Shown: positions 11,738 to 52,013 of the stretch, in pieces
How positions within the stretch are numbered: the first letter of the stretch is position 1
Layout of the letters: every line of letters starts with the position of its first letter
Assembly: GCA_018673255.1 (NCBI GenBank)
Contig: JABHDC010000265.1
Coordinates: 1 to 55,059, forward strand
Reading direction: 5' to 3'
From: Gemmatimonadota bacterium
GTDB taxonomy: Bacteria; Latescibacterota; UBA2968; UBA8231
DNA length: 55,059 nucleotides
Notes under the pieces: generated by a model
Told to the model about the DNA's origin: nothing
Database searches by the model: none
What the model saw: only the letters and a program-made list of their open reading frames with translations
Program-made: the position numbers and the translations under genes

Positions 11738-11977
11738 CTACACCGGTGGCTCGGGTTCGTAGATGTCGCCCTCGAGATCGTCGAGTTTGTCGGCGAGAAA
11801 GGCACGCGCGTCCTGGACACCCTGATTGTAGACGGGCGGACCGAGTGTGACGATGAAGAATTCCAGCAGACGCTCGGACTGGAACTCGCTCAGTTCCTCG
11901 TCGAAGGTCTCCGTGTAGAATTTGGCCAGATCCTGGTAGATCGATCTCTTGCGTGTATCGGACAGTTTGATCCGCAT
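11738..11977 (-). CDS. DUF2164-family protein
   Basis: 79 residues, acidic and helical, with the family pattern: 'FDEELSEFQSERLLEFF' and 'LGPPVYNQGVQDARAFL', ending in 'GDIYEPEPP'. Function of DUF2164 is unknown. The start lies 4 bases after the stop of the single-chain RNA polymerase gene, so it is very probably the third gene of the sigma-RNAP operon. Confidence 0.78.
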   Translation of the reverse strand: MRIKLSDTRKRSIYQDLAKFYTETFDEELSEFQSERLLEFFIVTLGPPVYNQGVQDARAFLADKLDDLEGDIYEPEPPV

Positions 11978-11981
11978 GGTC

Positions 11982-14900
11982 TTACTCGGGCAACCCTACA
12001 AACAGTCTTGAGCTGTCCTCCTCAAGAGGATCTGTCTCGCCGGCCCGCGCGGCACGCGCGAAGACGATGCCGGGTTGGTTGCAGCGCCGGGCGCGTGCCA
12101 GGACACCATGACCCCGAGGCCGGGAGCGCACGACGTGATCCTGCTCCAGGGCGGTGATCTGCTGACGGATATTGAATAGGCCTCGCCGGGCGCCGATGAC
12201 TCGGACCAGCGCCTCGGAGGCACTGAGTCCTTCGCGCCAGCAGCGTCTCACAGGGATGAGATTGTTCTGTGTGTCGTGAACGGGGCCACCTGGGGCAAAC
12301 AGTGCCGCCACCTGATGCGCATTGGCTCGGGCGCCGGCGTGGGACAGAAGGTGGACGATACCGGCATCCTCGTCGTCGTAGTCGTCGTAGGCCGTCACGA
12401 TGGCCTGGATCTCCTCCTGCCACGCCTGCCAGTGGTCGAATTCATCCGTCAATGGCGGCTCTGGAAGTGCAAGTGTCGCACCGATGAAGGGACCAATCGA
12501 GGCCCCTTCCTTTCTCGAGGCGGCGAACCCTGCACGCATTAGTTCCTGCGCCGCTGTCAGGGCGGCGTCGACGCCCTGGGCGTCGAGAATGTCGCTCAGT
12601 ATCTCGATCACCCTTTCGCGATTCCACAATGAGCCATCGGGTGTGTGCTGTGCGCCGACGATGGTGGCAAGGGCCTTGCGTCCCTTCGCGGTCCGACTCA
12701 GACAGGCCACACCAAAGATGGCATCCATGGCGGGTGCCAGTTCACTGATGAGCCCGGGCTCGTCCCGCAGATGACCGGCGATCGACAGATGATCGCGCGC
12801 CTCGAGCGTGGCCCTTTCCGTGAGAGGGACGAAAAGCGCGGCCTGGTCCCCATCGAAATCGGCATCCAACAGACGGCAGGCGAGGGGATGTAGATGAATG
12901 GCTTTCCCATCGCGCCGAAGGGGCTGAAATGCCAACAGAGAGGTGCGGCCTGTCGCCGGCGGCCGATGCAGGATCACCCAGGCCGAGGCCAACACACGAT
13001 CGAGGGCTGCAGTGGCATCATCCGTACGATTCTCGACTGCCGCAGCGTCACCCATTTCGCGGGCGGTCTGCGGGCCGAACAGGGCCCAGGCCAGTTCCTC
13101 GGGTATGCCCAGTTGATCGATTCGCAGATCCTGTCCGGGGATCAGGATTGCTCGGGCACTGAACAGCACGCGTGAGCCGAACCCCAGGTGATCTGCACAG
13201 AGCAGGCTGTCGAATTCCCGCCCGATGGCCCGGGTGAGTGCCTCTCGTGCCTCGTTGAGGATGGGCGCCGGCGTGTCGCCATCCAGCAGCGTGGTAAGCC
13301 GCCGATTGGCATCGACGATCTGTTGACCGGCTGCTCCTTCCACGATGCTGATACTGTCCAGCGTTCTGTCTGGAAGCCACGGGTGGAGTACCGATTCGGC
13401 CAGTTCGAGCGTCTGGTTGGCGTCTCCCGGTGTCACGGCCTCGCTGAAACTGATGCCGGTGCTACTGGTTTTCACAGTGATCCCGGCAACACCCAAACGA
13501 TGGGTGAGTGCCTGGAATCGAGGGGATGGCGTCGTGGCTGCCTCGACGGGGCCGGCCGCCACACGCTCGGCAAGGCTGGCAGCGTCCTCCCGCTCGGCGT
13601 TGGAGGTATTGGTGAACTCACCGATCACGGCCGTTGCGTCCGCTTCGCGCAACGCCTGAATCTCCATCGACCCCAGCATCTGGCAACGCTGCCCGGGTGT
13701 CGTGCCGGACTGGAGCTTCTCGCGAGCCATGTGGATCGTGCAGCCCCAGTAGACCCAGCCGGCTGTCGTGCGTCGATTCAGCGGCTGATCGCCATCCGTC
13801 AGTTGCAGCATACCATCGGCGGGCAGGCCGACACTTTGTAGACGCTGGCGCAGGTCATCGTCGGATGGCGCGTGGAAGGGTGCCACGATGGCGGGCGTGT
13901 TCTGAGCTCGCGCGACGTGGCTGATCGCCGCCTCGCGCAACAGACCGACGACCCAGCGCGAGGGCACACCGCAGATGCTGAAGAGCAATTCCAGGGGCGT
14001 GCCATCCGGTAGTCGCGGCATCTGCTCATCGGGCACGATCCTGGAGATGACCCCCTTGATGCCGTGGCGATTGCTGAGCTTGTCGCCCGGTTCCATCACC
14101 AGGGGGTTGGCGAGTTTGCGTGAAGCGGTCTCACTCAGAACGATGGCATCCTCGAAGGTGCCCTCATCCCAGGAAACGAAAGCGCTCAGCAGGTTGCGGC
14201 CACCCCAGAAATCGACATCCTCCGGTTCGTCACCGGTCTGTACAAGAGCGGCCTCGCGTTCGGTCGGTGGCACCCACTGGCGCATCATGTTCGCGCCCAT
14301 GAGCACGCGGTTGCCATCGTCGTGTTCCAGGAATGGAATACAGGCGGCAGACAGCCCCAATCCCGCCTCAGGCGTGTCGTCGACGATGATGAGTCGGCCA
14401 TCGCGAATGTCGGCACCCCGGGAAATCGTCAGGATTCGGCCCACATTGGGCCCCTCGGGGCTCTCGAAAGGACAGGTGCGCCCGAAGTGCCCGGCCGTGA
14501 AGACGACCTCGCGGTCAGGGATCACGACCCGACGCAGGTGGCTGGATCGGTCCAGCCAGTTGTTGCCATTGAGTCGCTGCGCTGCGTGGGTGAAGAAGGC
14601 CCGTATCCAGTTGTCGAGGGGTGCCAGGGAGCGTACCAGATCAGCATCGAGTTCCACCTCGGGTGGGAGTTGCCCGAGTCTGGCTTCGGCAAAGGCACAC
14701 AGCTGATCGCCGACACACTGAATCCGTGCCTGATCCAGATCGTCCCGATCAGCGATGGGTAACACGACCAGGTCATGCGGATGAGAGTATCGCTGCACCG
14801 GCAGATCTGGTGTCCAGGCGGCCGGGTAGGCCCCCGCATCGATGTGATCGATGCGGAAGACGCCTTCCTCATCGGCCGTGGGGATTGTGGGGTACTCCAC

Positions 14901-15095
14901 ATGGACAGATGAGTTGCCGCCTACCTCGATGTGAATGCAACAAGTGTGTTCGGCTTCGGCTTCGACACGGTAATCGTTGATTCCGAGCCGGGCCGAGAGC
15001 AGGTTGGGGAGCCCGTGATGGAGGAAGTGGTCGTAGGACGTCTTGTGCCAGGACGTGGACGGCCTCAGACAGGTCGTAGTGGGCACTGAGTTCAT
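11982..15095 (-). CDS. Single-chain multisubunit-type RNA polymerase (beta-like and beta'-like halves in one protein)
   Basis: One uninterrupted 1037-residue frame. Residues about 15-200 follow RpoB's N-terminus (SYDHFLHHGLPNLL; DEEGVFRIDHI). Then come GRTCPFESPEGPNVGR (205-220), GANMMRQ (267-273), FEDAIVLSE (314-322), the beta double-psi-barrel motif GDKLSNRHGIKG (337-348, both catalytic-site Lys present), GVPSR (376-380) and GSMEIQALREADA (475-487). The beta'-like half has RVLFSARAILIPG (642-654), LLAFQPL, GKAIHLHPL, the catalytic DADFDGDQ (744-751; Asp 746, 748, 750) and a bridge-helix-like WREGLSASEALVRVIGARR (953-971). RpoB plus RpoC normally exceed 2,500 residues: the Zn-binding clamp, flap extensions and a recognisable trigger loop are missing, and no alpha subunit is nearby. 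It overlaps the upstream ECF sigma gene by ATGA. I infer a dedicated minimal polymerase; phage SP-beta YonO is a known single-chain precedent. Confidence 0.9.
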   Translation of the reverse strand: MNSVPTTTCLRPSTSWHKTSYDHFLHHGLPNLLSARLGINDYRVEAEAEHTCCIHIEVGGNSSVHVEYPTIPTADEEGVFRIDHIDAGAYPAAWTPDLPVQRYSHPHDLVVLPIADRDDLDQARIQCVGDQLCAFAEARLGQLPPEVELDADLVRSLAPLDNWIRAFFTHAAQRLNGNNWLDRSSHLRRVVIPDREVVFTAGHFGRTCPFESPEGPNVGRILTISRGADIRDGRLIIVDDTPEAGLGLSAACIPFLEHDDGNRVLMGANMMRQWVPPTEREAALVQTGDEPEDVDFWGGRNLLSAFVSWDEGTFEDAIVLSETASRKLANPLVMEPGDKLSNRHGIKGVISRIVPDEQMPRLPDGTPLELLFSICGVPSRWVVGLLREAAISHVARAQNTPAIVAPFHAPSDDDLRQRLQSVGLPADGMLQLTDGDQPLNRRTTAGWVYWGCTIHMAREKLQSGTTPGQRCQMLGSMEIQALREADATAVIGEFTNTSNAEREDAASLAERVAAGPVEAATTPSPRFQALTHRLGVAGITVKTSSTGISFSEAVTPGDANQTLELAESVLHPWLPDRTLDSISIVEGAAGQQIVDANRRLTTLLDGDTPAPILNEAREALTRAIGREFDSLLCADHLGFGSRVLFSARAILIPGQDLRIDQLGIPEELAWALFGPQTAREMGDAAAVENRTDDATAALDRVLASAWVILHRPPATGRTSLLAFQPLRRDGKAIHLHPLACRLLDADFDGDQAALFVPLTERATLEARDHLSIAGHLRDEPGLISELAPAMDAIFGVACLSRTAKGRKALATIVGAQHTPDGSLWNRERVIEILSDILDAQGVDAALTAAQELMRAGFAASRKEGASIGPFIGATLALPEPPLTDEFDHWQAWQEEIQAIVTAYDDYDDEDAGIVHLLSHAGARANAHQVAALFAPGGPVHDTQNNLIPVRRCWREGLSASEALVRVIGARRGLFNIRQQITALEQDHVVRSRPRGHGVLARARRCNQPGIVFARAARAGETDPLEEDSSRLFVGLPE

Positions 15096-15691
15096 GCAAA
15101 GTCCTCCCAGTCAATACCCATCTCCTGCCAGGAGCGGGCGATCTGCTGTCGAGCGTGAAAGAGACGCGACTTCACGGTGCCTTCGGGGATTCCCAGTTCG
15201 TCGGCGACCTGCTGGGTTGACCTGTGGGCATCGTAGATCATGCGAACCACCACCTGCTTGTCTTCCGGCAACGTGTCGACGACGCGGTGCAGCAATTGGC
15301 GATGCTCGTTGCGCGCCGTCGCCTCATCAGGAGCGAGAGTCGACGCATCGACCATCCAGGCCGGTACGTCGGCCGGGTCGGTGTCGGTCACCGGTGCAGG
15401 TTGAATGGGTTGTTCCCGCCGCCGTTTGACGGTGCGCAGGTGGTTGAGGGCCAGATGGGTGGCAATCCGCAGCAGCCATGCCGGCAGGGCGCCATCGCCA
15501 TTCCACTGGTCGGCCCGATTCCACAATCGGAGGAAGACCTCCTGCGTCAGATCATCCGCGGTCGCGGGTTCACGGACAATTCCGTTCAGGTGGCTGCAGA
15601 CCGTTGCACGATAGCGCTCGAACAGCAGGGAGAATCCCTCCTGTTGCTTGCGAATCACGCGATCTACGAGTTCCTCGTCAGTTGGCTCCAA
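15092..15691 (-). CDS. ECF sigma factor coupled to the single-chain RNA polymerase
   Basis: 199 residues starting at a TTG that has a strong ribosome site (GGAGGG, about 6 bases upstream). Region 2 is clear ('LLFERYRATVCSHLNGIV', 'ADDLTQEVFLRLWNRADQW', 'PAWLLRIATHLALNHLRTVKRR') and region 4 too ('LHRVVDTLPEDKQVVVRMIY', 'STQQVADELGIPEGTVKSRL'). Its stop overlaps the polymerase start by ATGA, so the two are translationally coupled. No anti-sigma gene follows. The gap to the GMC oxidoreductase stop is 49 bp, so the operon may start further upstream. The arrangement suggests that this sigma serves the adjacent polymerase rather than, or as well as, the housekeeping core. Confidence 0.9.
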   Translation of the reverse strand: MEPTDEELVDRVIRKQQEGFSLLFERYRATVCSHLNGIVREPATADDLTQEVFLRLWNRADQWNGDGALPAWLLRIATHLALNHLRTVKRRREQPIQPAPVTDTDPADVPAWMVDASTLAPDEATARNEHRQLLHRVVDTLPEDKQVVVRMIYDAHRSTQQVADELGIPEGTVKSRLFHARQQIARSWQEMGIDWEDFA

Positions 15692-15740
15692 GCGTTCCCT
15701 CCGGCTTCCACGCGAATGACACCGCCGGGCACGATTCGGT

Positions 15741-17384
15741 TCACTTGCCGCAGAAAGAAATCATCTCGGGAGACAGTGGTGCGTCGCCGCGGATGGCATG
15801 GGCCGCTTTTTCCGCCAGCATCATGGTGGGGGCGTAGATGTTGCCATTGGTCACGTAGGGCATGGCGGAGGCATCCACCACGCGCAGTCCATCCAGTCCG
15901 TGAACCCGCAGGCTGTCCGGATCCAGCACCGACAGCGCATCGGTGCCCATGCGACAACTGCAGGAGGGGTGGTAGGCCGTCTCGCCATCGCGAGCCACCC
16001 AGTCCAGAATCTGGTCTTCTGAGTGGATCGCTGGTCCCGGCGAGATCTCGCCCCCGCTGATCCGCTGCAGGGCCGGCTGGTTCAGAATACCTCTGGCACA
16101 GGCGACGGCCTCGAGCCATTCGCGGCGGTCCTGTTCGGTCGAGAGGTAGTTGAAGCGCAGAGCTGGTGCCTGTCGGGGGTCGGAAGATCGCAACCTGACG
16201 CTGCCCCGGGCATCGGAGGTCATGGGGCCAATGTGGAGCTGGAAGCCGTGCCCGCGGGTGGGCGAACTGCCATCGTAGCGGATCGCCAGGGGCAGGAAGT
16301 GGATCATCAGATTCGGGTACGGCACCCGGTTGTTGCTGCGCACGAAGCCGCCGGCCTCGAAGTGATTGGTGGCCGCCGGTCCCGACCGCAGGAGCAACCA
16401 CTGCAATCCGATCCAGGGCTGGTTCCACCAGCGCAGGGCGGGCTGCATGGTGATGGGCTCGGTGCATGCATGCTGAACATAGACCTCGAGGTGATCCTGC
16501 AGATTCTCACCGACGCCGGGCAGATCGTGCACGACGTCGATGCCCAGGGGTTCGAGATCGGCTGCGGCGCCCACGCCGGAGACCTGCAGCAGTTGTGGCG
16601 AGTTGATCGCTCCACCGCAGCAGATAATTTCGCCGGCCAGTACTCGATGCGACCTGCCACGGTGCTCGTATTCGACGCCGATCGCCCGGGTGCCATCGAA
16701 CAGAATGCGACGGGTGAAGGCACTGCACTGCACATGCAGGTTGGGCCGTCGCCAGATTGGATGCAGGTAGGCTCCGGCGGCGGAGAGGCGTCGTCCTCGA
16801 TGGATATTGCGATCGAAGGCGGCGAAACCCTCCTGCCGAAAGCCATTCACATCATCGGTGCGGGAGTAGCCGGCCTCCTCGATGGCGTTGAAGAAGGCTT
16901 CGAAGAGTGGGCTGGCGGCCGGTCCACGTTCCAGGAACAGAGGTCCTTCGTCGCCGCGAAAGGCGTCCGTACCGGCCAGACAGGTCTCCATGCGTCTGAA
17001 GTAGGGGAGACAGTGAGCGTAGTCCCACCCAGCCATGCCGTCGTCACGGGCCCAGCGTTCGTAGTCGAGGGGATTGCCACGCTGAAAGATCATGCCATTG
17101 ATGCTGCTGGATCCTCCAAGGATCTTGCCACGGCCGTGGGAGACTCGGCGGTCGTGCATGCAGGGCTCGGGCTCCGACTCATACATCCAGTCGTAACGCG
17201 GATTGCCGATGGGATGAGACAGACCGGCAGGCATGTGGATGAAGAGATCCCACCATCGGTCGCGGCGACCGGCCTCGAGCACGAGAACGGAGGTGGATGG
17301 ATCCTCACTGAGCCGATTGGCCAGGACACAACCAGCAGAGCCACCGCCGATGATGATGACATCGGTGGTCGTAGGGGGCACCAT
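15741..17384 (-). CDS. GMC-family FAD oxidoreductase (choline/alcohol dehydrogenase-like)
   Basis: 547 residues. The FAD-binding dinucleotide motif IIIGGGSAGCVLANRL opens the protein. GGSSSINGMIFQRG is the GMC signature 1, and the C-terminus carries 'AYHPSCSCRMG' and 'NGNIYAPTMMLAEKAA', which hold the active-site His and Asn. Substrates of this family are primary alcohols, choline or sugars. Its start shares one base with the stop of the SDR gene (TGATG), so the two oxidoreductases are co-translated and probably act in one alcohol or polyol oxidation path. Confidence 0.88.
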   Translation of the reverse strand: MVPPTTTDVIIIGGGSAGCVLANRLSEDPSTSVLVLEAGRRDRWWDLFIHMPAGLSHPIGNPRYDWMYESEPEPCMHDRRVSHGRGKILGGSSSINGMIFQRGNPLDYERWARDDGMAGWDYAHCLPYFRRMETCLAGTDAFRGDEGPLFLERGPAASPLFEAFFNAIEEAGYSRTDDVNGFRQEGFAAFDRNIHRGRRLSAAGAYLHPIWRRPNLHVQCSAFTRRILFDGTRAIGVEYEHRGRSHRVLAGEIICCGGAINSPQLLQVSGVGAAADLEPLGIDVVHDLPGVGENLQDHLEVYVQHACTEPITMQPALRWWNQPWIGLQWLLLRSGPAATNHFEAGGFVRSNNRVPYPNLMIHFLPLAIRYDGSSPTRGHGFQLHIGPMTSDARGSVRLRSSDPRQAPALRFNYLSTEQDRREWLEAVACARGILNQPALQRISGGEISPGPAIHSEDQILDWVARDGETAYHPSCSCRMGTDALSVLDPDSLRVHGLDGLRVVDASAMPYVTNGNIYAPTMMLAEKAAHAIRGDAPLSPEMISFCGK

Positions 17385-44472: not shown

Positions 44473-45216
44473 ATGGTCTCCAGTTCCGACAGCACTGACA
44501 CGACACCCACCCGTGAGTCCAGTTCAGGCGGTGGTTTCCGCGAGTACGGTACCTCCATCCTCGTCGCCGTGGGTCTGGCCCTGCTCATTCGATCAACCAT
44601 CGTGCAGGCCTTCTATATTCCGTCCGGCTCAATGGAGGACACGCTGTTCGTCGGTGACTACCTGCTGGCCAACAAGTTTGTCTTCGGCGCGCCGATCGAG
44701 ATCCCTCTGGTCGATGCCCCCCTGATGAGGCTGCCAGCCTTCCGCGACCCACGACAGGGCGACATCGTCATCTTCCGCTCTCTCGAAGAGGCGGGCAGAG
44801 ACCTGATCAAGCGTTGTGTTGCCGTCGGCGGTCAGACCGTGGAGGTGCGTGACAAGGTGCTGTATGTCGATGGCCAGGTCCTGCCAGATGCACCGGATGG
44901 CAAGTTTGTCGATCGGGTCATCTATCCGGCCGGTTCGCGGGTTCGTGACAATTTCGGTCCCCTGACGGTGCCGGAGGGCCACTTCTTCATGATGGGTGAC
45001 AACCGAGATCGCAGCCGGGACAGTCGGTATTTTGGCCCCGTGCCTCGGGAGAAGATCAAAGGCAAGGCGATGATCATCTATTGGTCGTCGACCCTTGTGT
45101 CGGGCCCCATCTACCGGTTGCCGCAGATGCTGGCCGACGCGGGGAATTTCGCCTGGAATCTGCCATCTCTCCCATTCCGTACGCGCTACGATCGCCTGGG
45201 AACGATCATCCACTAG
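44473..45216 (+). CDS. lepB: Signal peptidase I
   Basis: 247 residues. One N-terminal membrane helix ('SILVAVGLALLIRSTIVQAF') is followed by the catalytic Ser in YIPSGSMEDTL, the general-base Lys in DLIKRCVAVGG, and the conserved box 'FFMMGDNRDRSRDSRYFG'. It cleaves signal peptides at the outer face of the inner membrane. It precedes the proteasome genes by 25 bases. Confidence 0.95.
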   Translation: MVSSSDSTDTTPTRESSSGGGFREYGTSILVAVGLALLIRSTIVQAFYIPSGSMEDTLFVGDYLLANKFVFGAPIEIPLVDAPLMRLPAFRDPRQGDIVIFRSLEEAGRDLIKRCVAVGGQTVEVRDKVLYVDGQVLPDAPDGKFVDRVIYPAGSRVRDNFGPLTVPEGHFFMMGDNRDRSRDSRYFGPVPREKIKGKAMIIYWSSTLVSGPIYRLPQMLADAGNFAWNLPSLPFRTRYDRLGTIIH

Positions 45217-45241
45217 GCGCACTCATGAGCGAGGACCCACG

Positions 45242-46990
45242 ATGACCGATCGCGAGTTCTTCGAAGCAGGAGACGCGGAGGATCTGCCGCGTGACGCCGA
45301 CCGGTCCGGACATCGCGGCTTCGGTTCGGGTCGCCCGGACGAGACGGATGGGGATCCCCTCGTCCTCGTCGACCAGGTGTTGATGACGGTACCTGAGCGG
45401 GATCCCTCCCGCCCTCTGCTGTATCAGCTGCGCCGCCAGTTGCTCGAGCGCGAGATCACCTTCCAGGAGGCCCGTCGCACCCTCGTCGAACTCGAGGGTA
45501 CCCTTGAGAAGGTCACGGCCCCGGCCAATCGCGTCGGAATCTATCTCGGTTCACCCAGAGATGGCATCGCGAATGTCTTCGTCGGCGGATCGGAATACTA
45601 CGCCAACATCGACGCACGGCTCGATCCGGAGGATCTCCTCGTCGGGGTCCGGGTCCTCATCAACGAAGCCTATGCCGTGGTGGGGACTCTCGGGTATCCG
45701 CCCTCGGGACCGGTGGTCCGCATTGCCGACGTGCTGGACGAAACACGCCTGCGGATCGGCCAGGAGCACGGCTCCAGTGACGCCGTCCTCGAGCGTTCGC
45801 AAGATCTGCGCGACGTCGAACTGAAAGTCGGCGACGAGGTGCGGGCCGATCCGGCGATGAAGGTCGCCATCGAGCGGCTGACCTCCAGCGACAGCAAGGA
45901 GTATTTCCTCGAGGAGATCCCGCCCATGCCCTGGACGCGGATCGGCGGCCAGGAGGAGGCGATACACGCCATTCGCGACACGATCGAGCTGCCGGCCCTG
46001 CATCCGGAGCTGTTCGATCGATTCCAGTATTCGACGCCGAAGGGTTTCCTGCTATATGGGCCGCCGGGGTGCGGCAAGACGCTGATCGGCAAGGCGACGG
46101 CCTTCAGTCTGGTTCAGCATCTGCGGAAAGAGGAAGGTCTCGAAGTGCAGGAGTACTTCATGCACATCAAGGGGCCGGAAATCCTCAACATGTGGCTCGG
46201 CGAGACCGAGCGCATGGTGCGGGAGATCTTCAACCAGGCACGCCGCAAGCGCGACGAGGGCTTCCTGCCCTTCATCTTCATCGACGAGGCCGAATCGATC
46301 CTTGGCACGCGCCGGTCCATGCGATCCCATCACATTGCCAACACCGTGGTCCCCATGTTCTGCACCGAGATGGATGGCATAGAGTCTCTGCAGGACGTGG
46401 TGATCATTCTGGCCTCTAATCGCCACGATCTGATCGATCCGGCGATTCTTCGGCCCGGTCGAATCGATCGGAAGATCAAGGTCGGCCGGCCCGATCAGGC
46501 TTCGTCGGCGCAGATTCTCGGTATCTACCTGTCTGACGACTTGCCCATCGACGCCTCTGCCGTGGCCGAGTTCGGCAGTGCCGCCGCAGCACGCGACGTC
46601 TTCGTGGAACGCACTTCGAAGGCGCTCTTCGCCCGTACCGACGATACCCGTTTTCTCGAGGTATCATTGCGCAGTGGTCGGACGGAGATCCTCTATTTCG
46701 GCGATCTGGTCAGTGGTGCGCTCATCGACAACCTCGTGCAGCGGGCAAAGGAATCGGCGATCAAGCGGGCCATCGCCGACGGTGAGGTGGAAGCTGCCGG
46801 TCTGCGTCTCGATGATCTGCTGGGCGCCGTACACAGCGAATACCGAGAGAACGAGGTCTTTCCACCCTCTGACAGCGTCGCCGACTGGCTGACCCTGCTC
46901 GATTACGACGCGGAGAATGTGGTGCGCGTGGCTCCCGTAACCGCTGATGCTGACCGGGACCAGGCGGCCAGAGCCGGAACAGTCATTTGA
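45242..46990 (+). CDS. mpa: Proteasome-associated AAA+ ATPase (Mpa/ARC)
   Basis: 582 residues forming the hexameric unfoldase that feeds tagged proteins to the 20S core. An N-terminal helical segment ('LLYQLRRQLLEREITFQEA', 'LVELEGTLEKVTAPANRVG') is the coiled coil that captures Pup. Two OB-like parts follow, then the AAA domain: GPPGCGKTLIGKA (about 273), PFIFIDEAESI (about 340), sensor 'ILASNRHDLIDPAILRPGR'. Mycobacterial Mpa ends GQYL, whose Tyr docks into the proteasome; this protein ends AGTVI. Its stop overlaps the dop TTG start. Confidence 0.93.
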   Translation: MTDREFFEAGDAEDLPRDADRSGHRGFGSGRPDETDGDPLVLVDQVLMTVPERDPSRPLLYQLRRQLLEREITFQEARRTLVELEGTLEKVTAPANRVGIYLGSPRDGIANVFVGGSEYYANIDARLDPEDLLVGVRVLINEAYAVVGTLGYPPSGPVVRIADVLDETRLRIGQEHGSSDAVLERSQDLRDVELKVGDEVRADPAMKVAIERLTSSDSKEYFLEEIPPMPWTRIGGQEEAIHAIRDTIELPALHPELFDRFQYSTPKGFLLYGPPGCGKTLIGKATAFSLVQHLRKEEGLEVQEYFMHIKGPEILNMWLGETERMVREIFNQARRKRDEGFLPFIFIDEAESILGTRRSMRSHHIANTVVPMFCTEMDGIESLQDVVIILASNRHDLIDPAILRPGRIDRKIKVGRPDQASSAQILGIYLSDDLPIDASAVAEFGSAAAARDVFVERTSKALFARTDDTRFLEVSLRSGRTEILYFGDLVSGALIDNLVQRAKESAIKRAIADGEVEAAGLRLDDLLGAVHSEYRENEVFPPSDSVADWLTLLDYDAENVVRVAPVTADADRDQAARAGTVI

Positions 46991-48522
46991 CTGGCCGCAT
47001 CTACGGGCTGGAGACCGAATACGGGATCCAGGTCGATGAGATCGATGGTGGCCTGGATGTCGTGGTCGAGTCGATGGAACTCATCCGCTGCTTCCTGCAG
47101 CGAGACTTCGTTGCCCGCTGGGACTATCGTCTCGAGAATGCTCGCCGCGACATGCGCGGATTTGAGGTGGACGAACTTCTCAATGACACGGATGAGACCG
47201 TCCATCTGCAGAAGGACCGTGAGCGGAAGATTCCACTGAGCGAGTTGAAGAGTGATCTCATCATCGCCAATGGCGCCAGGCTGTACAACGACCACACGCA
47301 CCCCGAATACTCGACGCCCGAGTGCCTGAGTCTGCGCGACCTGGTCGCCTTCGATCGGGCAGGTGAGCAGATCCTGCTGCACTGTGCACGTCAGCGCACG
47401 CAACAGCGGGACGGCGGCATCGTGCGTCTCTACAAGAACAACACGGACTTCGACGGCCATTCCTATGGCTGCCATGAGAACTACCTGCTGCCTCGGCAGA
47501 TTCCATTCGACGACGTCATCCAGGCGTTGTTGCCATTTCTGGTGACACGTCAGGTCTTTGCCGGTGCAGGCAAGGTCGGCGTCGAGGCCACCGGAGTGAC
47601 CGATCAAGCCGTATATCAGTTGGCCCAGCGGTCTGATTTCTTTGAGGTGATCGCCAGCGTCGACACGATGACACGTCGGCCACTGGTCAATACACGCGAC
47701 GAGCCCCACGCCGATCCTGCGTACTACCGTCGATTACACATCATCATCGGTGATGCCAACATGTGCGAGTGGGCGACGGCTCTGAAGGTCGGGACCCTGC
47801 GGTTGATCCTGGAAATGCTCGAGACCGGTCAGCTGCCTGGCATCCAGCTGGCCGACCCCATCGGCACCGTGAAGTCAATCTCCCGTGACGCCACCCGCCG
47901 TTGGGAGGTGGAACTGGCCGATGGCTCGCCCTCCACGGCGCTCGAGGTTCAGCGTCGGTATCTGGAGCGAGCCCGATCCCTGGTGGCCGGGCGCGATGAG
48001 GAGACGGACTGGGTGCTGACACAGTGGACACAAGCGCTGGAGGCACTCGCCCTGGATCCGGATCAGTTGATTGGCCGCTGTGACTGGGTGACCAAGAAGT
48101 GGCTGCTGGATGCCTTTGCCGAGGCCGAGGGTCTCGACTGGCAGAAGGATGAGGATCGTGCCTGGTTGCAGAGCCAGGATCTCGAATACCACAACATCGA
48201 TCCTGAAGAGGGACTGTTCCTCCTGCTGGAGGCTGGTGGTGAGCAGGTTGCCCGGCTCACAACCGATACGGATGTCGACCGTGCCCTGGTGCAGCCGCCA
48301 ATCGACACGCGTGCCTGGTTCAGAGGCGGCGCGCTGTCTCGGTTTGGCGACAAGGTGCGGTCGCTGAACTGGGATTCGATCGAGTTCGACGTCGGCGATG
48401 GTCATGTGGCCATCATCGATCTGAAGAGTTGTGTCGATTCAGACCGGGCGGCTATCTTCAACGCCCACCTGGACCGGGCCGGTTCTGTCGAGGAACTGGT
48501 GGCCGCATGCAATGCGGCGTAG
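46987..48522 (+). CDS. dop: Deamidase/depupylase of Pup (Dop)
   Basis: 511 residues from a TTG overlapping the mpa stop (TTGA). The Pup-ligase superfamily N-terminus is 'RIYGLETEYGIQV', then 'ARLYNDHTHPEYSTPECLS' (the Dop type; PafA has G-G-R), 'KNNTDFDGHSYGCHENYLL', 'VFAGAGKVG', 'ADGSPSTALEVQRRYLERA', 'CDWVTKKWLLDAF' and 'LEYHNIDPEEGLF'. The tag gene downstream ends in Glu, so no deamidation is needed and this enzyme probably removes the tag from substrates. Confidence 0.88.
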   Translation: MTGRIYGLETEYGIQVDEIDGGLDVVVESMELIRCFLQRDFVARWDYRLENARRDMRGFEVDELLNDTDETVHLQKDRERKIPLSELKSDLIIANGARLYNDHTHPEYSTPECLSLRDLVAFDRAGEQILLHCARQRTQQRDGGIVRLYKNNTDFDGHSYGCHENYLLPRQIPFDDVIQALLPFLVTRQVFAGAGKVGVEATGVTDQAVYQLAQRSDFFEVIASVDTMTRRPLVNTRDEPHADPAYYRRLHIIIGDANMCEWATALKVGTLRLILEMLETGQLPGIQLADPIGTVKSISRDATRRWEVELADGSPSTALEVQRRYLERARSLVAGRDEETDWVLTQWTQALEALALDPDQLIGRCDWVTKKWLLDAFAEAEGLDWQKDEDRAWLQSQDLEYHNIDPEEGLFLLLEAGGEQVARLTTDTDVDRALVQPPIDTRAWFRGGALSRFGDKVRSLNWDSIEFDVGDGHVAIIDLKSCVDSDRAAIFNAHLDRAGSVEELVAACNAA

Positions 48523-48558
48523 CGGTCTCCAGGACGATCCTTCTCAAAGGGAGAGACC

Positions 48559-48753
48559 ATGAGTCTTGAGTCCGGCATGAGAGATCGCGCGCCCCGGCCG
48601 ACCAAACCACTGGGTGACGGTGATGGCGGCAATGAGGACGAAGGTCCCCGTCGGCCGAAGGTCGAACGGCCCAATACCGATGATCTGCTCCGCCGCATGC
48701 GCAAAGTGGACCCGAATCAGGCTCGCCGTTATCGTCAGCGGACCGGTGAATAG
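48559..48753 (+). CDS. ubact: UBact/Pup-like protein modifier
   Basis: 64 residues, highly charged and disordered in the first half, with an 'RPNTDDLLRRMRKVDPNQA' helix that Mpa should bind and the C-terminus RRYRQRTGE. The ending G-E and the R-Y-R-Q-R motif are those of UBact, the Pup-like modifier described in Nitrospirae and several candidate phyla. The terminal Glu is the residue that PafA joins to substrate lysines. A GGGAGAG site precedes the ATG. It sits between dop and prcB. Confidence 0.92.
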   Translation: MSLESGMRDRAPRPTKPLGDGDGGNEDEGPRRPKVERPNTDDLLRRMRKVDPNQARRYRQRTGE

Positions 48754-48766
48754 AGATCGCTCAGTG

Positions 48767-49558
48767 ATGGCGGAAGGCAACGACTTTCTGCATCTGCTGC
48801 GTCAGCATGGCCACACGCCGCCACCGGCGATGGAGGGTACGGCCGGCTCGATCACCACACCCACCGAGGGCACGACCATTCTAGCAGTCCGGTATCGTGA
48901 CGGTGTGCTGGTGGCTGGTGATCGTCGCGCCACAGCCGGGAACGTCATCGTCTACGATCGTGCGGCCAAAGTGTTGTCCGTCGACGATCGCTCCGTCCTG
49001 GCCCTGTCCGGCTCGCCTGCCAATGCCTACGAGATCGCCCGACTCCTGGAGATTTCCTTCCAGCACTACCGGCGCACTCAACTGCAGGAGTTGAGCCTCG
49101 ATGGTCGTCTGCGAACCCTGTCTCGTCTCTTGCGTGACAATCTACCCATGGCCATGCAGGGCATCGGCGCCGTCGTACCGATCTATGTGACCTTCGAGCA
49201 CCCCAGTGGACGAGGAGAACACGACCCGGGTGGCAAGATCTTCTTCTACGACGTGCTCGGTGCGACCTTTGAATCAGTCGATTTCTGCACGACCGGCTCC
49301 GGCTCGCCGATCATCCGCGGGGCTCTCTACTACCAGAATCGGTGGGAGCAGCCCTTCATCGAGCGCGATGAAGCGGCGACGCTGATCCTCGTCTTGAAGA
49401 TGTTGGAGACGGCAGCCGAATTCGACACGGCGACCGGTGGTTTCAGTGCGACGGCGGCAATCTATCCGCAGGTGATGCGGGTGACGGCAGAAGGTATCTC
49501 GTCGATCGACGAAGCGACCCTGGCCGCCACGTATCGCCTCGCCGAAGTCAGGACATAG
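48767..49558 (+). CDS. prcB: 20S proteasome beta subunit
   Basis: 263 residues from ATG (GTG one codon earlier is possible). A 35-residue propeptide ends ...PTEG, followed by the catalytic Thr (T36) in TTILAVRYRDGVLVAGDRR. The Lys of GDRRAT...AKVL and 'LALSGSPANAYEIARLLE' belong to the beta fold. The stop TAG at 49556 overlaps the TA at which a palindromic element is inserted. Confidence 0.95.
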   Translation: MAEGNDFLHLLRQHGHTPPPAMEGTAGSITTPTEGTTILAVRYRDGVLVAGDRRATAGNVIVYDRAAKVLSVDDRSVLALSGSPANAYEIARLLEISFQHYRRTQLQELSLDGRLRTLSRLLRDNLPMAMQGIGAVVPIYVTFEHPSGRGEHDPGGKIFFYDVLGATFESVDFCTTGSGSPIIRGALYYQNRWEQPFIERDEAATLILVLKMLETAAEFDTATGGFSATAAIYPQVMRVTAEGISSIDEATLAATYRLAEVRT

Positions 49559-49719
49559 TGTCCTGTCGCAGAGATCCGTCGACGTTCGACGCCCGATCCA
49601 TCCCGGTTCGCGGCGTTGCGCTCACTCTGTGTATCCCACCGATACGCATCGCTCGCGCGCCTTGCGAACCGGGCGCCTCGGCCGCCGAACTTTGTCAACT
49701 TATCCCTGCGACAGGACAC
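49558..49719. mobile_element. 162-bp MITE-like element with 14-bp terminal inverted repeats, inserted at TA
   Basis: Perfect terminal inverted repeats GTGTCCTGTCGCAG (49558-49571) and CTGCGACAGGACAC (49706-49719), flanked by TA on both sides (49556-49557 and 49720-49721). Inside are CCCGGTTCGC/GCGAACCGGG (49602-49611, 49664-49673) and GTATC/GATAC (49631-49645), so most of the element can fold into one nested stem. There is no coding capacity. A TA duplication points to an IS630/Tc1-mariner-type transposase acting in trans. Removing the element with one TA leaves ACATAGACGATG: the prcB stop TAG, 3 bases, and the prcA ATG, a normal operon spacing. Confidence 0.8.
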
Positions 49720-49725
49720 TAGACG

Positions 49726-50517
49726 ATGCTGGATGAACCGTATCGCTGGGTCGAGGCAATCCGCAATCGCCGCGAGTATCTGCAGGATCAGCTCGCCGCA
49801 GCCAGTCCCCTGGTGGCCTGTCGCTACGCCGATGGCCTGCTCCTTCTGACCTCGACACCGGGGCCGCGAAAAATCTTCGAGGCTTACAATCAGATCGTGT
49901 TCGCCGGTGTCGGCCATCCAGCCGATATCGAGAAGCTCCGTAAGTCCGTCATCGATATCGCTCACCTGGAAGCATTCAACCTGTCTGCCGGTGATGTGTC
50001 GCTGCAGCGGCTGGTGAACTTCGGTGTGGGTCCGCTCATGAAGACCGCCTTCGACGAGATCTTCCGGTCTCCCTTCATCGCGCGGATCCTCGTGGCAGAA
50101 TTGGATCCGTCCGATGAACGTGAGACCTTCTGCACTGTTGATGCAGACGGCACGTTCGCCGGCGCTGCCGAGGCGGCCGTCATTGCAGGTGTTCCGCACG
50201 TGGCCGAGAGCATCCTGGCTCAATTGCCCACAGGCAGTGCTCCTGCACCACTGAATCAGGCGTTGGCGACGGTATTACGCGCCTGGGGGATCGGTCGACT
50301 CGCAAATGAAGTGGCGGCAGAGGATTCCGCAGACTCTACCGTGGATCCCACGCCCGGCCCGTCGGATGACCAGATCGCGACGGAGATCGATGCCGCCCTC
50401 GAGACCGTTCGCCTCGAGGCAGCAGTTCTGGATCGTACTCTGCCGACGAAGAGCAAGTTCCGGCTGCTGGATGCCGAATCCCTGCAGGCAGCAGTCGATG
50501 TGGTGAAGGCCCCATGA
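49726..50517 (+). CDS. prcA: 20S proteasome alpha subunit
   Basis: 263 residues from ATG 4 bases after the palindromic element. 'EAIRNRREYLQDQLAAASP' is the H0 gate helix, followed by 'LVACRYADGLLLLTSTPGP', 'VFAGVGHPADIEKLRKSVI' and the fold characteristic of PrcA. The C-terminal about 60 residues are acidic and extend past the fold. It forms the outer rings of the 20S particle. Its own ribosome site may now come from the inserted element, as no AGGAG is near. Confidence 0.9.
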   Translation: MLDEPYRWVEAIRNRREYLQDQLAAASPLVACRYADGLLLLTSTPGPRKIFEAYNQIVFAGVGHPADIEKLRKSVIDIAHLEAFNLSAGDVSLQRLVNFGVGPLMKTAFDEIFRSPFIARILVAELDPSDERETFCTVDADGTFAGAAEAAVIAGVPHVAESILAQLPTGSAPAPLNQALATVLRAWGIGRLANEVAAEDSADSTVDPTPGPSDDQIATEIDAALETVRLEAAVLDRTLPTKSKFRLLDAESLQAAVDVVKAP

Positions 50518-50573
50518 CCGCTCTTCAGGCCACGCTGGCCCCCGGACTGTAGTTCGGCCCCAGTCCTGCAACC

Positions 50574-52013
50574 ATGCGTAATCGCATCTATGGTCTGGAG
50601 GTCGAGTTTGGCTGCATGCCGCCGGACGCCGATCCCTTCCTGAGCCCCGATTTTGTTTCGATGAAGACGAAGGACTGTGTCTTCCATCATGAAGGATTGG
50701 GGATCGTCGATATCCACTACCGCGGCCGCGATGAGCCACCGGGCAATGGCGGCTTCCTGTTCAATGGGGGGCGCTTCTATCTCGACATGGGTCATGTCGA
50801 ATACGCCACACCGGAGTGTCGTGGACTCTTCGATCTGGTCGCCTCCGATCGGGCGGGGGAAGTCATCGTGCAGAGGGCCCTCGAGCAACTTGGCCTGGCC
50901 GACGAAGGCGGATTCTTCAAGAACAACATCGACCACTATACGGGGGCGACCTTTGGTTGCCACGAGAATTACCTGGTTCGTCGAGAGGTGCCCTTCCAGC
51001 AGGTTCTACTGCCGGCGATTCTGCCCTTCTTCGTCACGCGACAGGTCTTTGCCGGCGCCGGACGCGTGGGTTGCCATACGGACATTTTCGAGTATGGTGG
51101 ATCTGAAGACGGGGACGTGCCATACCAGATTTCGCAACGAGCCGATCACATCGTCACCGAGATCTACCAGTGGATCCAATTCTCGCGCGCCATTATCAAC
51201 TCGCGCGACGAACCATTGGCCGACTTCGGGCTCTATCGTCGCCTTCATCTGCTGGTTGGTGACAGCAACATGTCCGAATACGCCACTGCGCTGAAGGTGG
51301 GGACCACGGCGCTGGTACTCGAACTGTTGGAAGAACGAATCGTCCCGGAGGTCAAACTCCTCGACCCGGTGCAGGCGATCCGTGACATCTCCCGGGATCT
51401 CGGGTATCGCTGGGAAGTTCGGCTCGAAGATGGCTCCTACACGACAGCCCTCGATATCCAGCGAGAATACCTCCAGTTGTCTGAGCAGTATCTGCGCGGC
51501 AAGGACGATGAGGGGGACTGGATCCTCGACGAATGGCGTTTCGTCCTGGATGGTCTGACCTACGATCCCATGTCTCTGATGGATCGATTGGACTGGGTGA
51601 CCAAGAAGTGGTTGCTGGAGACCTTCATCGCCGAAGAGGGTCTGGAGTGGAATGATCCGTGGCTCCAGTCACTTGATCTGGAATATCACAATGTGAACCC
51701 CGAAAAGGGGCTCTACTACGATCTCCGCAACCGCGGACTCACTCGCCGAGTGATCGATGACGAGCATGTGAATGCTTCCATCGTCACCCCGCCTCAGGAC
51801 ACGCGGGCCAAGGCGCGCTCGCAGGTCATGCGCTGCCTCACCGGGCAGAAGTCACGATACGTGATCGACTGGGATTCGATCTACGTGGAGGACGAGAAAT
51901 ACCTGAATCTCGACGATCCGTTCCTCACCTACGAAGGTGAAGCGAAGACATTCATCGAGGATGTGACCAAACCTGTGGACACGGGTATTGTCGGGCCGGA
52001 AAAATCTTCTTGA
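50574..52013 (+). CDS. pafA: Pup/UBact-protein ligase PafA
   Basis: 479 residues. 'NRIYGLEVEFGCMPPD', 'NGGRFYLDMGHVEYATPECR' (ligase type), 'KNNIDHYTGATFGCHENYL', 'VFAGAGRVG', 'EDGSYTTALDIQREYLQLS', 'LDWVTKKWLLETF' and 'LEYHNVNPEKGLYYDL' place it beside Dop in the same superfamily. It activates the tag's terminal Glu with ATP and joins it to Lys. It ends the proteasome cluster. The prcA stop lies 56 bases upstream. Confidence 0.9.
   Translation: MRNRIYGLEVEFGCMPPDADPFLSPDFVSMKTKDCVFHHEGLGIVDIHYRGRDEPPGNGGFLFNGGRFYLDMGHVEYATPECRGLFDLVASDRAGEVIVQRALEQLGLADEGGFFKNNIDHYTGATFGCHENYLVRREVPFQQVLLPAILPFFVTRQVFAGAGRVGCHTDIFEYGGSEDGDVPYQISQRADHIVTEIYQWIQFSRAIINSRDEPLADFGLYRRLHLLVGDSNMSEYATALKVGTTALVLELLEERIVPEVKLLDPVQAIRDISRDLGYRWEVRLEDGSYTTALDIQREYLQLSEQYLRGKDDEGDWILDEWRFVLDGLTYDPMSLMDRLDWVTKKWLLETFIAEEGLEWNDPWLQSLDLEYHNVNPEKGLYYDLRNRGLTRRVIDDEHVNASIVTPPQDTRAKARSQVMRCLTGQKSRYVIDWDSIYVEDEKYLNLDDPFLTYEGEAKTFIEDVTKPVDTGIVGPEKSS

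Follow-up and report, generated by a model that had tools for sequence, protein, structure and literature searches.

Bacterial cells are usually described as containing a single multi-subunit RNA polymerase (RNAP). The locus described here lies in a 55,059-nucleotide contig from a Gemmatimonadota bacterium (GTDB Latescibacterota; GenBank assembly GCA_018673255.1, contig JABHDC010000265.1; hereafter the window), and raises the question of what little-known environmental bacteria use a second, one-piece polymerase for. Its two genes encode an extracytoplasmic function (ECF) sigma factor and, downstream of it, a 1037-residue polymerase-like protein, a pair that an earlier note on this DNA had taken for a self-contained transcription system. 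Judging from its sequence, the 1037-residue protein is very probably an active polymerase, and the evidence leans, if not heavily, towards an accessory, minimal single-chain DNA-dependent RNAP derived from rpoB and rpoC, which would form a two-protein holoenzyme with the upstream ECF sigma factor at the promoter of their own operon.

A minimal polymerase of bacterial descent

The single reading frame had been described as RpoB blocks followed by RpoC blocks, and both Pfam and profile alignment bear this out. On the 1037-residue chain, Pfam finds Rpb2_3 at residues 178-228, Rpb2_6 at 334-463 (4.5e-26) and Rpb1_2 at 703-768 (5.5e-18), the last two being the families that the earlier note had proposed to look for. 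Profile-profile alignments were made to sets of RpoB and of RpoC sequences centred on E. coli K-12, the numbering reference throughout. In them, residues 114-546 correspond, across large gaps, to E. coli beta 442-1342 (P 100, E 7e-63), and residues 597-978 to beta' 276-788 (P 100, E 1e-42), so that the match to RpoB and RpoC is not due to chance. Weaker alignments relate the first 112 residues to segments of the beta N terminus (P 21 and 2), and residues ~563-595 to beta' 105-136 (P 6). Bacterial NCBIfam models outscore archaeal ones for both rpoB (162 bits versus 87.5 and 68) and rpoC (117 bits versus 38 and 31); by sequence, the polymerase appears clearly to be of the bacterial beta/beta' lineage.

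The names and roles of the E. coli landmarks (flap, clamp helices, trigger loop, catalytic residues and sigma docks) follow general usage. The lysines and aspartates of the two catalytic barrel motifs map one to one onto E. coli, with K339, K347, R380 and H455 corresponding to beta K1065, K1073, R1106 and H1237, and R711 and D746/D748/D750 to beta' R425 and D460/D462/D464. In a structure model both double-psi barrels, not one alone, fold as those of RNAP beta and beta' do, and the two barrels, the Asp triad and the barrel lysines together are those of the two-double-psi-barrel superfamily. The bridge helix of housekeeping RpoB/RpoC enzymes is found in the model and in the alignment, and residues 597-629 of the clamp helices match beta' 276-308 when aligned alone (P 74, E 2.7e-5). 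For the C-terminal piece, hhalign gives no match to the end of beta'; the VIA-align range does run to near beta' 1360, though the end of that half model is poor; of 1369 ungapped registers along beta', the top one starts at 1318, with a score of 16.9 against 2.2 for the next (z 5.2). The retained parts are thus the fork region, both barrels, the clamp helices, the F-loop, the bridge helix and the beta' end.

Much else cannot be detected. In the best alignment, no residue falls on E. coli beta 830-937, the flap, on beta' 1-100, the zinc domain, or on beta' 805-1407; with the C-terminal tail put by the register test at 1318-1355, behind the trigger loop, the stretch left without a counterpart is 805-1317, that of the trigger loop and jaw, in agreement with the earlier remark that neither trigger loop nor zinc clamp could be seen. 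A trigger loop supplied by another gene was considered and rejected: 18/18 carrier genomes have a single PF04998 match each, in a frame of rpoC length (1366-1613 residues).

A homologue search returned 779 proteins at E 1e-3 or better. The best 120 of these 779, except the partial P0001 (836 residues), have lengths of 1002-1092 residues and share 42-72% identity with the query, and conservation was read from an alignment of 120 sequences, the window protein and the 119 others, from which P0001 was dropped. The catalytic set is kept in these homologues, with the Asp triad complete in 116/120, the two lysines in 117/120 and both sets in 113/120. Residues R272, Q273, K339 and H455 are invariant, and R380 is present in 119/120. 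In eight close pairs, dN/dS is 0.13-0.18 for the polymerase and 0.08-0.36 for the sigma factor.

A dedicated sigma gene beside the polymerase gene

The upstream gene, which has a TTG start with a GGAGG-like site ahead of it in the window, encodes regions 2 and 4 of an ECF sigma factor (Sigma70_r2, 1e-16; Sigma70_r4_2, 7.5e-13) and scores 101 bits against TIGR02937, with a cut-off of 42.9. A homologous sigma gene is found upstream on the same strand in 37/39 loci from 38 genomes, in 34 with the first flanks and in three more with wider flanks; the remaining two are a locus whose contig starts inside the polymerase gene (L139) and a broken copy (L152). The description of the sigma factor as dedicated is supported. 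In nine of nine carrier genomes searched, the sigma orthologue is the best match, far above the next ECF sigma, with 40-61% identity for the linked sigma versus at most 36% for other ECF matches among those listed, and sequence comparison indicates that the linked sigmas are a separate orthologous group. Clear sigma matches occur in three of 48 non-carriers screened (out of 115 in two phyla), two of them at contig ends that show the first polymerase residues, and one a truncated sigma without a polymerase.

The ATGA by which the two genes overlap is present in the DNA, as had been noted, but the coupling read from it is local: the distance between sigma and polymerase varies, from overlap in some loci to a few hundred bases in others, and in at least four loci a further gene intervenes. 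These four, L154-L157, are of one clade. In L154 the inserted gene encodes an ABC transporter, and L156 and L157 have genes like it; the product in L155 is 396 residues long and matches no Pfam family.

When 25 neighbourhoods were clustered, only the sigma and polymerase genes, together with other-frame open reading frames of the same DNA, recurred in all or nearly all. The DUF2164 gene does follow the polymerase gene after 4 bases, as the DNA confirms, but it is not a conserved part of the locus; as a partner it was rejected, being absent at 24/24 other loci.

One conserved promoter

The pattern TGAAC-N16-GNGTC, a promoter with an AAC-type -35 element as ECF factors have ahead of their own genes, lies ahead of the sigma gene in 25/25 loci checked, which are not independent and make up 13 groups with less than 75% polymerase identity between them. 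The spacer is 15 in L004. The distance to the sigma start is 37-59 bases in 22 loci and 100-212 bases in three, and in the window the GMC oxidoreductase gene upstream ends in a stop codon that overlaps the -35 element. Elsewhere in the loci the pattern is rare, matching six times in 676,784 bases, both strands counted; the window holds one further match, at 44526(-).

Genome-wide, the strict pattern matches 27 times in 29 carriers, and 18 of these matches lie at the sigma gene, versus 19 matches in 29 of the 115 non-carriers; the remaining 11 carriers have own sites that it missed, and eight carriers have no match. A wide regulon was rejected on this ground, the strict pattern not being enriched beyond its own site. 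With a Poribacteria-type pattern and two mismatches allowed, 11/11 carriers yield the own site and six others, versus one match in nine non-carriers. These extra sites prove little, because a control with the spacer one base too long also gave six sites with two mismatches, every one of them in a carrier, while the nine non-carriers gave none. Five of the control sites are mutually similar (G381, G382, G384, G002 and G388; L202-L204, L206 and L207), and perhaps represent a shared repeat or related element.

The only good extra site, with 0 and 1 mismatch, lies ahead of an ABC-2 permease-like gene in two related genomes (G381:C27, L186 and L209; G382:C1, L187 and L210), and on this sequence match the gene is a candidate regulon member there. 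A further site precedes a truncated second copy of the sigma gene in G359 (contig C139, L183).

Distribution and inheritance

Sources among the matches listed include Gemmatimonadota, Poribacteria, Hydrogenedentes, Chloroflexi, Planctomycetota and Myxococcales. Carriers are patchy across several bacterial phyla and amount to 38 of 589 genomes, a sum over four carrier-centred surveys, none of them of Planctomycetota: 22/64 in the phylum of G001, 11/84 in that of G002, 4/301 in that of G004 and 1/140 in that of G005. For the survey of 301 genomes, four matches with E < 1e-200 were counted and 159 genomes with rpoB-looking matches were set aside. Each of the five genomes checked (G001-G005) encodes a single small polymerase and has, at other places, ordinary rpoB and rpoC. 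In relatives the gene sits on single contigs of 5.66, 5.97 and 6.53 Mb, and is therefore chromosomal.

In an identity matrix of 13 dereplicated loci (not a tree), L165, from the Chloroflexota survey, shares 0.51 identity with L163 and L167, which belong to other phyla, but 0.44 with L004, from its own phylum; these identities suggest that the polymerase may have moved between phyla. G354 has two polymerase copies (L132, L141), the second of which runs off the end of its contig, and G375 has a broken one (L152); with the truncated sigma of G359, these copies are signs of duplication and decay.

No full-length phage or plasmid relative was found: matches occur in 42 phage and 69 plasmid records, and none reaches 80% query cover. 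Among 20 rows of each that were inspected, nearly all are ordinary rpoB/rpoC, with a few subunits like those of jumbo phages; one plasmid record has a 60-80% identical match. Two alignment-derived patterns found no relative in IMG/VR. PADLOC matched no model, and a defence system was rejected for lack of such a match.

How the pair might work

The small polymerase would have arisen by fusion of rpoB and rpoC and massive domain loss. Region 2 of the sigma factor would dock on the retained clamp helices and read the -10 element (GNGTC), while region 4, with no flap to dock on, would read the -35 element (TGAAC) and might be kept in place by the conserved linker of the sigma. The promoter of the pair's own operon would be the first and nearly the only one served, so that synthesis would be autogenous, and a few lineage-specific genes may be transcribed besides. 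Two-metal catalysis, by the DxDxD triad and barrel lysines over the bridge helix, would proceed without a trigger loop. There is a precedent for this: YonO, from the Bacillus phage SP-beta, is reported to be a single chain without a trigger loop that is processive, less accurate and devoid of cleavage activity (PMC5467207). Because the small polymerase has no trigger loop either, it would be expected, as reported for YonO, to select NTPs less strictly, to be less faithful and to lack cleavage activity of its own.

A direct partnership of sigma and polymerase is favoured because the clamp helices were retained while much else was deleted, and because the sigma linker is conserved. The polymerase-linked sigmas share a linker motif, PxWxxD, with W112 present in 92% of 13 versus 5% of 21 paralogues, although part of this excess is expected because one orthologous group is set against mixed paralogues. 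Sigma and polymerase distances also correlate (r 0.77, p 1e-4, 13 dereplicated loci), as they would through shared inheritance alone. Besides these two reservations, several observations weigh against the two-protein holoenzyme. Loss of the flap removes the usual dock of sigma region 4. Ordinary ECF promoters have the same -35/-10 spacing as the promoter found here, which thus fits a holoenzyme of the sigma with the housekeeping RNAP equally well, and between 29 carriers and 29 non-carriers no genome-wide enrichment of the promoter beyond its own site was found. Among the 120 aligned sequences, the Asp triad is broken in four, by D746N in P0071, P0100 and P0117 and by D748A in P0037, and K347 is changed in three; going by sequence, the four with a broken triad are perhaps inactive enzymes with another role. 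Because of the flap loss, use of the linked sigma by the polymerase is plausible and no more, and to call the system self-contained, as the earlier note did, overstates the case, since the sigma could serve the housekeeping polymerase.

The main rival is a division of labour, unlikely though to be taken seriously, in which the sigma and the housekeeping RNAP switch on the operon and the small polymerase acts free of sigma. Its substrates might then be RNA, single-stranded DNA, nicks or the ends of DNA, and its role might lie in repair, in priming or in making small RNA or double-stranded RNA (dsRNA). The absence of a flap for region 4, together with a promoter of ordinary ECF architecture, would suit this, and the sigma may serve only the expression of the small polymerase because few other TGAAC/GNGTC promoters were found in the genomes. 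Single-chain two-barrel enzymes that copy RNA are reported to exist (PMC1750930). Against such a division stand the retained clamp helices, the group-specific conservation of the sigma linker and a sequence closest to bacterial DNA-dependent RNAP; likewise, none of the 48 non-carriers tested had an intact sigma without a polymerase.

It is improbable that the protein is a regulatory mimic, occupying the anti-sigma position and titrating either the sigma or its promoter, while catalysis would be of minor importance or lost altogether. Encoded second in an ECF operon, where none of the other genes is shared by all 25 neighbourhoods, it is well placed for such a role, which clamp helices able to bind sigma region 2 and the relatives with a broken triad would suit too. 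However, catalytic Lys, Asp, Arg and His residues are nearly invariant in the 120 sequences, and a core of 1000 residues under purifying selection exceeds what a decoy needs.

Slightly less probable again is a phage-derived or selfish origin, as the remnant of a mobile polymerase, in which the two genes transcribe themselves without benefit to the host. The patchy distribution, with some relationships cutting across phyla, the closed loop of sigma and promoter, and the duplicate and broken copies in G354 and G375 all have a selfish look; yet the phage, plasmid and IMG/VR searches described above found no full-length relative, no gene other than the sigma and polymerase genes recurs in all 25 neighbourhoods, and the codon composition of the polymerase gene is like that of its neighbours (GC3 0.721, versus 0.66-0.76 for 12 window genes). 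That the gene is a chimeric assembly or an rpoBC pseudogene, for which nothing speaks except its unusual size, is next to inconceivable given its neighbour-like codon composition, 119 of 120 listed relatives longer than 900 residues, very large single contigs that carry it, normal rpoB and rpoC elsewhere in the five genomes checked and the low dN/dS.

The strongest form of the holoenzyme proposal, a non-viral and fully orthogonal two-protein system in which a polymerase of ~1,000 residues, without trigger loop or flap, and an ECF sigma serve one conserved promoter, their own, is tentative and rather more doubtful than not. If true, it would amount to a transcription loop that is autocatalytic and has been inherited, and passed between bacterial phyla, alongside the normal RNA polymerase. 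More generally, a second, one-piece enzyme of bacterial descent with a sigma and a promoter of its own would make testable which parts of RNAP are needed for promoter-specific transcription, and might be turned into a small orthogonal tool for gene expression from promoters of the bacterial type.

Relation to known polymerases

Compared to the bacterial beta and beta' subunits, the small polymerase has the same catalytic residues and ~30% identity over the aligned core. The flap, zinc domain, trigger loop and jaw of the housekeeping subunits, and most of their beta N-terminal region, are undetectable here, and scores fall well below the NCBIfam equivalog cut-offs (rpoB, 162 versus 801 bits; rpoC, 117 versus 963). 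Unlike the housekeeping enzyme, the small polymerase is an extra enzyme in the five genomes checked. Fusions of beta and beta' (PRK09603 and PRK14844, which we take to be the Helicobacter and Wolbachia types) likewise carry beta and then beta' in one chain, but the models are 2890 and 2839 long, against 1037 here, and their cut-offs are far from reached (159 versus 5372 and 156 versus 4632 bits).

Autoregulated ECF operons consist of a sigma gene with an anti-sigma gene, the sigma having regions 2 and 4 only and AAC in its own -35 box. The locus described here is alike in sigma type and in its own promoter, and differs in that the co-conserved second gene encodes an RNA polymerase core.

The RNA polymerases of crAss-like phages are also of an unusual two-barrel, non-housekeeping type. 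To our knowledge these enzymes, and those of jumbo phages and P23-45, are viral and have no operon link to an ECF sigma gene; they are set apart from the small polymerase by description. The jumbo-phage and P23-45 polymerases resemble it as reduced or unusual two-barrel enzymes outside the housekeeping class (PMC7598289, PMC10770324). YonO is alike in being a single chain of ~100 kDa with two barrels and no trigger loop (PMC5467207). The small polymerase differs from YonO in having a dedicated ECF sigma gene, and in that no full-length phage member was found; PHROGs gave no match named YonO, and the two are set apart by description. The same source places YonO-like proteins in main genomes too, so that carriage by a phage is not required, and chromosomal single-chain polymerases are already known from what Forrest et al. 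describe.

The earlier suggestion of an uncharacterised chromosomal version may thus stand for the chromosomal, sigma-linked form and not for chromosomal single-chain polymerases as such. Single-chain two-barrel polymerases are known; in the literature searched, we found no report of one that combines bacterial beta/beta' descent with a conserved sigma and a conserved promoter. The searches for a sigma-linked single-chain polymerase were partly narrow, and an earlier description is possible.

The locus in the window

The annotated parts, all on the minus strand, are collected in Table 1.

Table 1. Features of the polymerase locus, in window coordinates
Feature	Position	Strand	Basis or remark
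Single-chain RNA polymerase gene, 1037 residues	11982..15095	-	Open reading frame, Pfam, family search, structure model, profile alignment
Beta-like half, residues 1-546	13458..15095	-	Shrunken N-terminal part, fork region, hybrid-binding domain with first double-psi barrel
Beta'-like half, residues 547-1037	11985..13457	-	Clamp helices, second barrel, F-loop, bridge helix, C-terminal piece
GDKLSNRHGIKG, residues 337-348, putative catalytic Lys 339 and 347	14052..14087	-	K339 in 120/120, K347 in 117/120 sequences
DADFDGDQ, residues 744-751, Asp triad 746/748/750	12843..12866	-	Triad complete in 116/120 sequences
Clamp helices, residues 588-631, hairpin for docking of sigma region 2	13203..13334	-	Two helices in model
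Bridge helix, residues 959-990	12126..12221	-	32-residue helix in model; start aligned to beta' 769-788
C-terminal piece, residues 998-1037, as beta' end (~1318-1355) behind bridge helix	11985..12104	-	Ungapped register test
Dedicated ECF sigma gene, 199 residues, regions 2 and 4	15092..15691	-	Pfam; genome searches for orthologue
ECF-type promoter TGAAC-N16-GTGTC (TGAACCGAATCGTGCCCGGCGGTGTC)	15718..15743	-	Motif comparison across loci
DUF2164 gene, adjoining 3' gene here, not a conserved part	11738..11977	-	PF09932, E 9.3e-23

A near relative of the window organism is represented by L257 (G364:C22), with 71-79% DNA identity over several genes. It shares the GMC/SDR neighbours upstream of the sigma gene, and is arranged differently from window positions 21-35 kb. 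Farther along, at 45095-52013, the window holds a cluster like that of a Pup-proteasome system, with two genes of the Pup-ligase family (Pfam, 519 and 459 bits) and three genes resembling a proteasome ATPase (457 bits), a 20S beta subunit (165) and an alpha subunit (60), all three scoring below the NCBIfam cut-offs.

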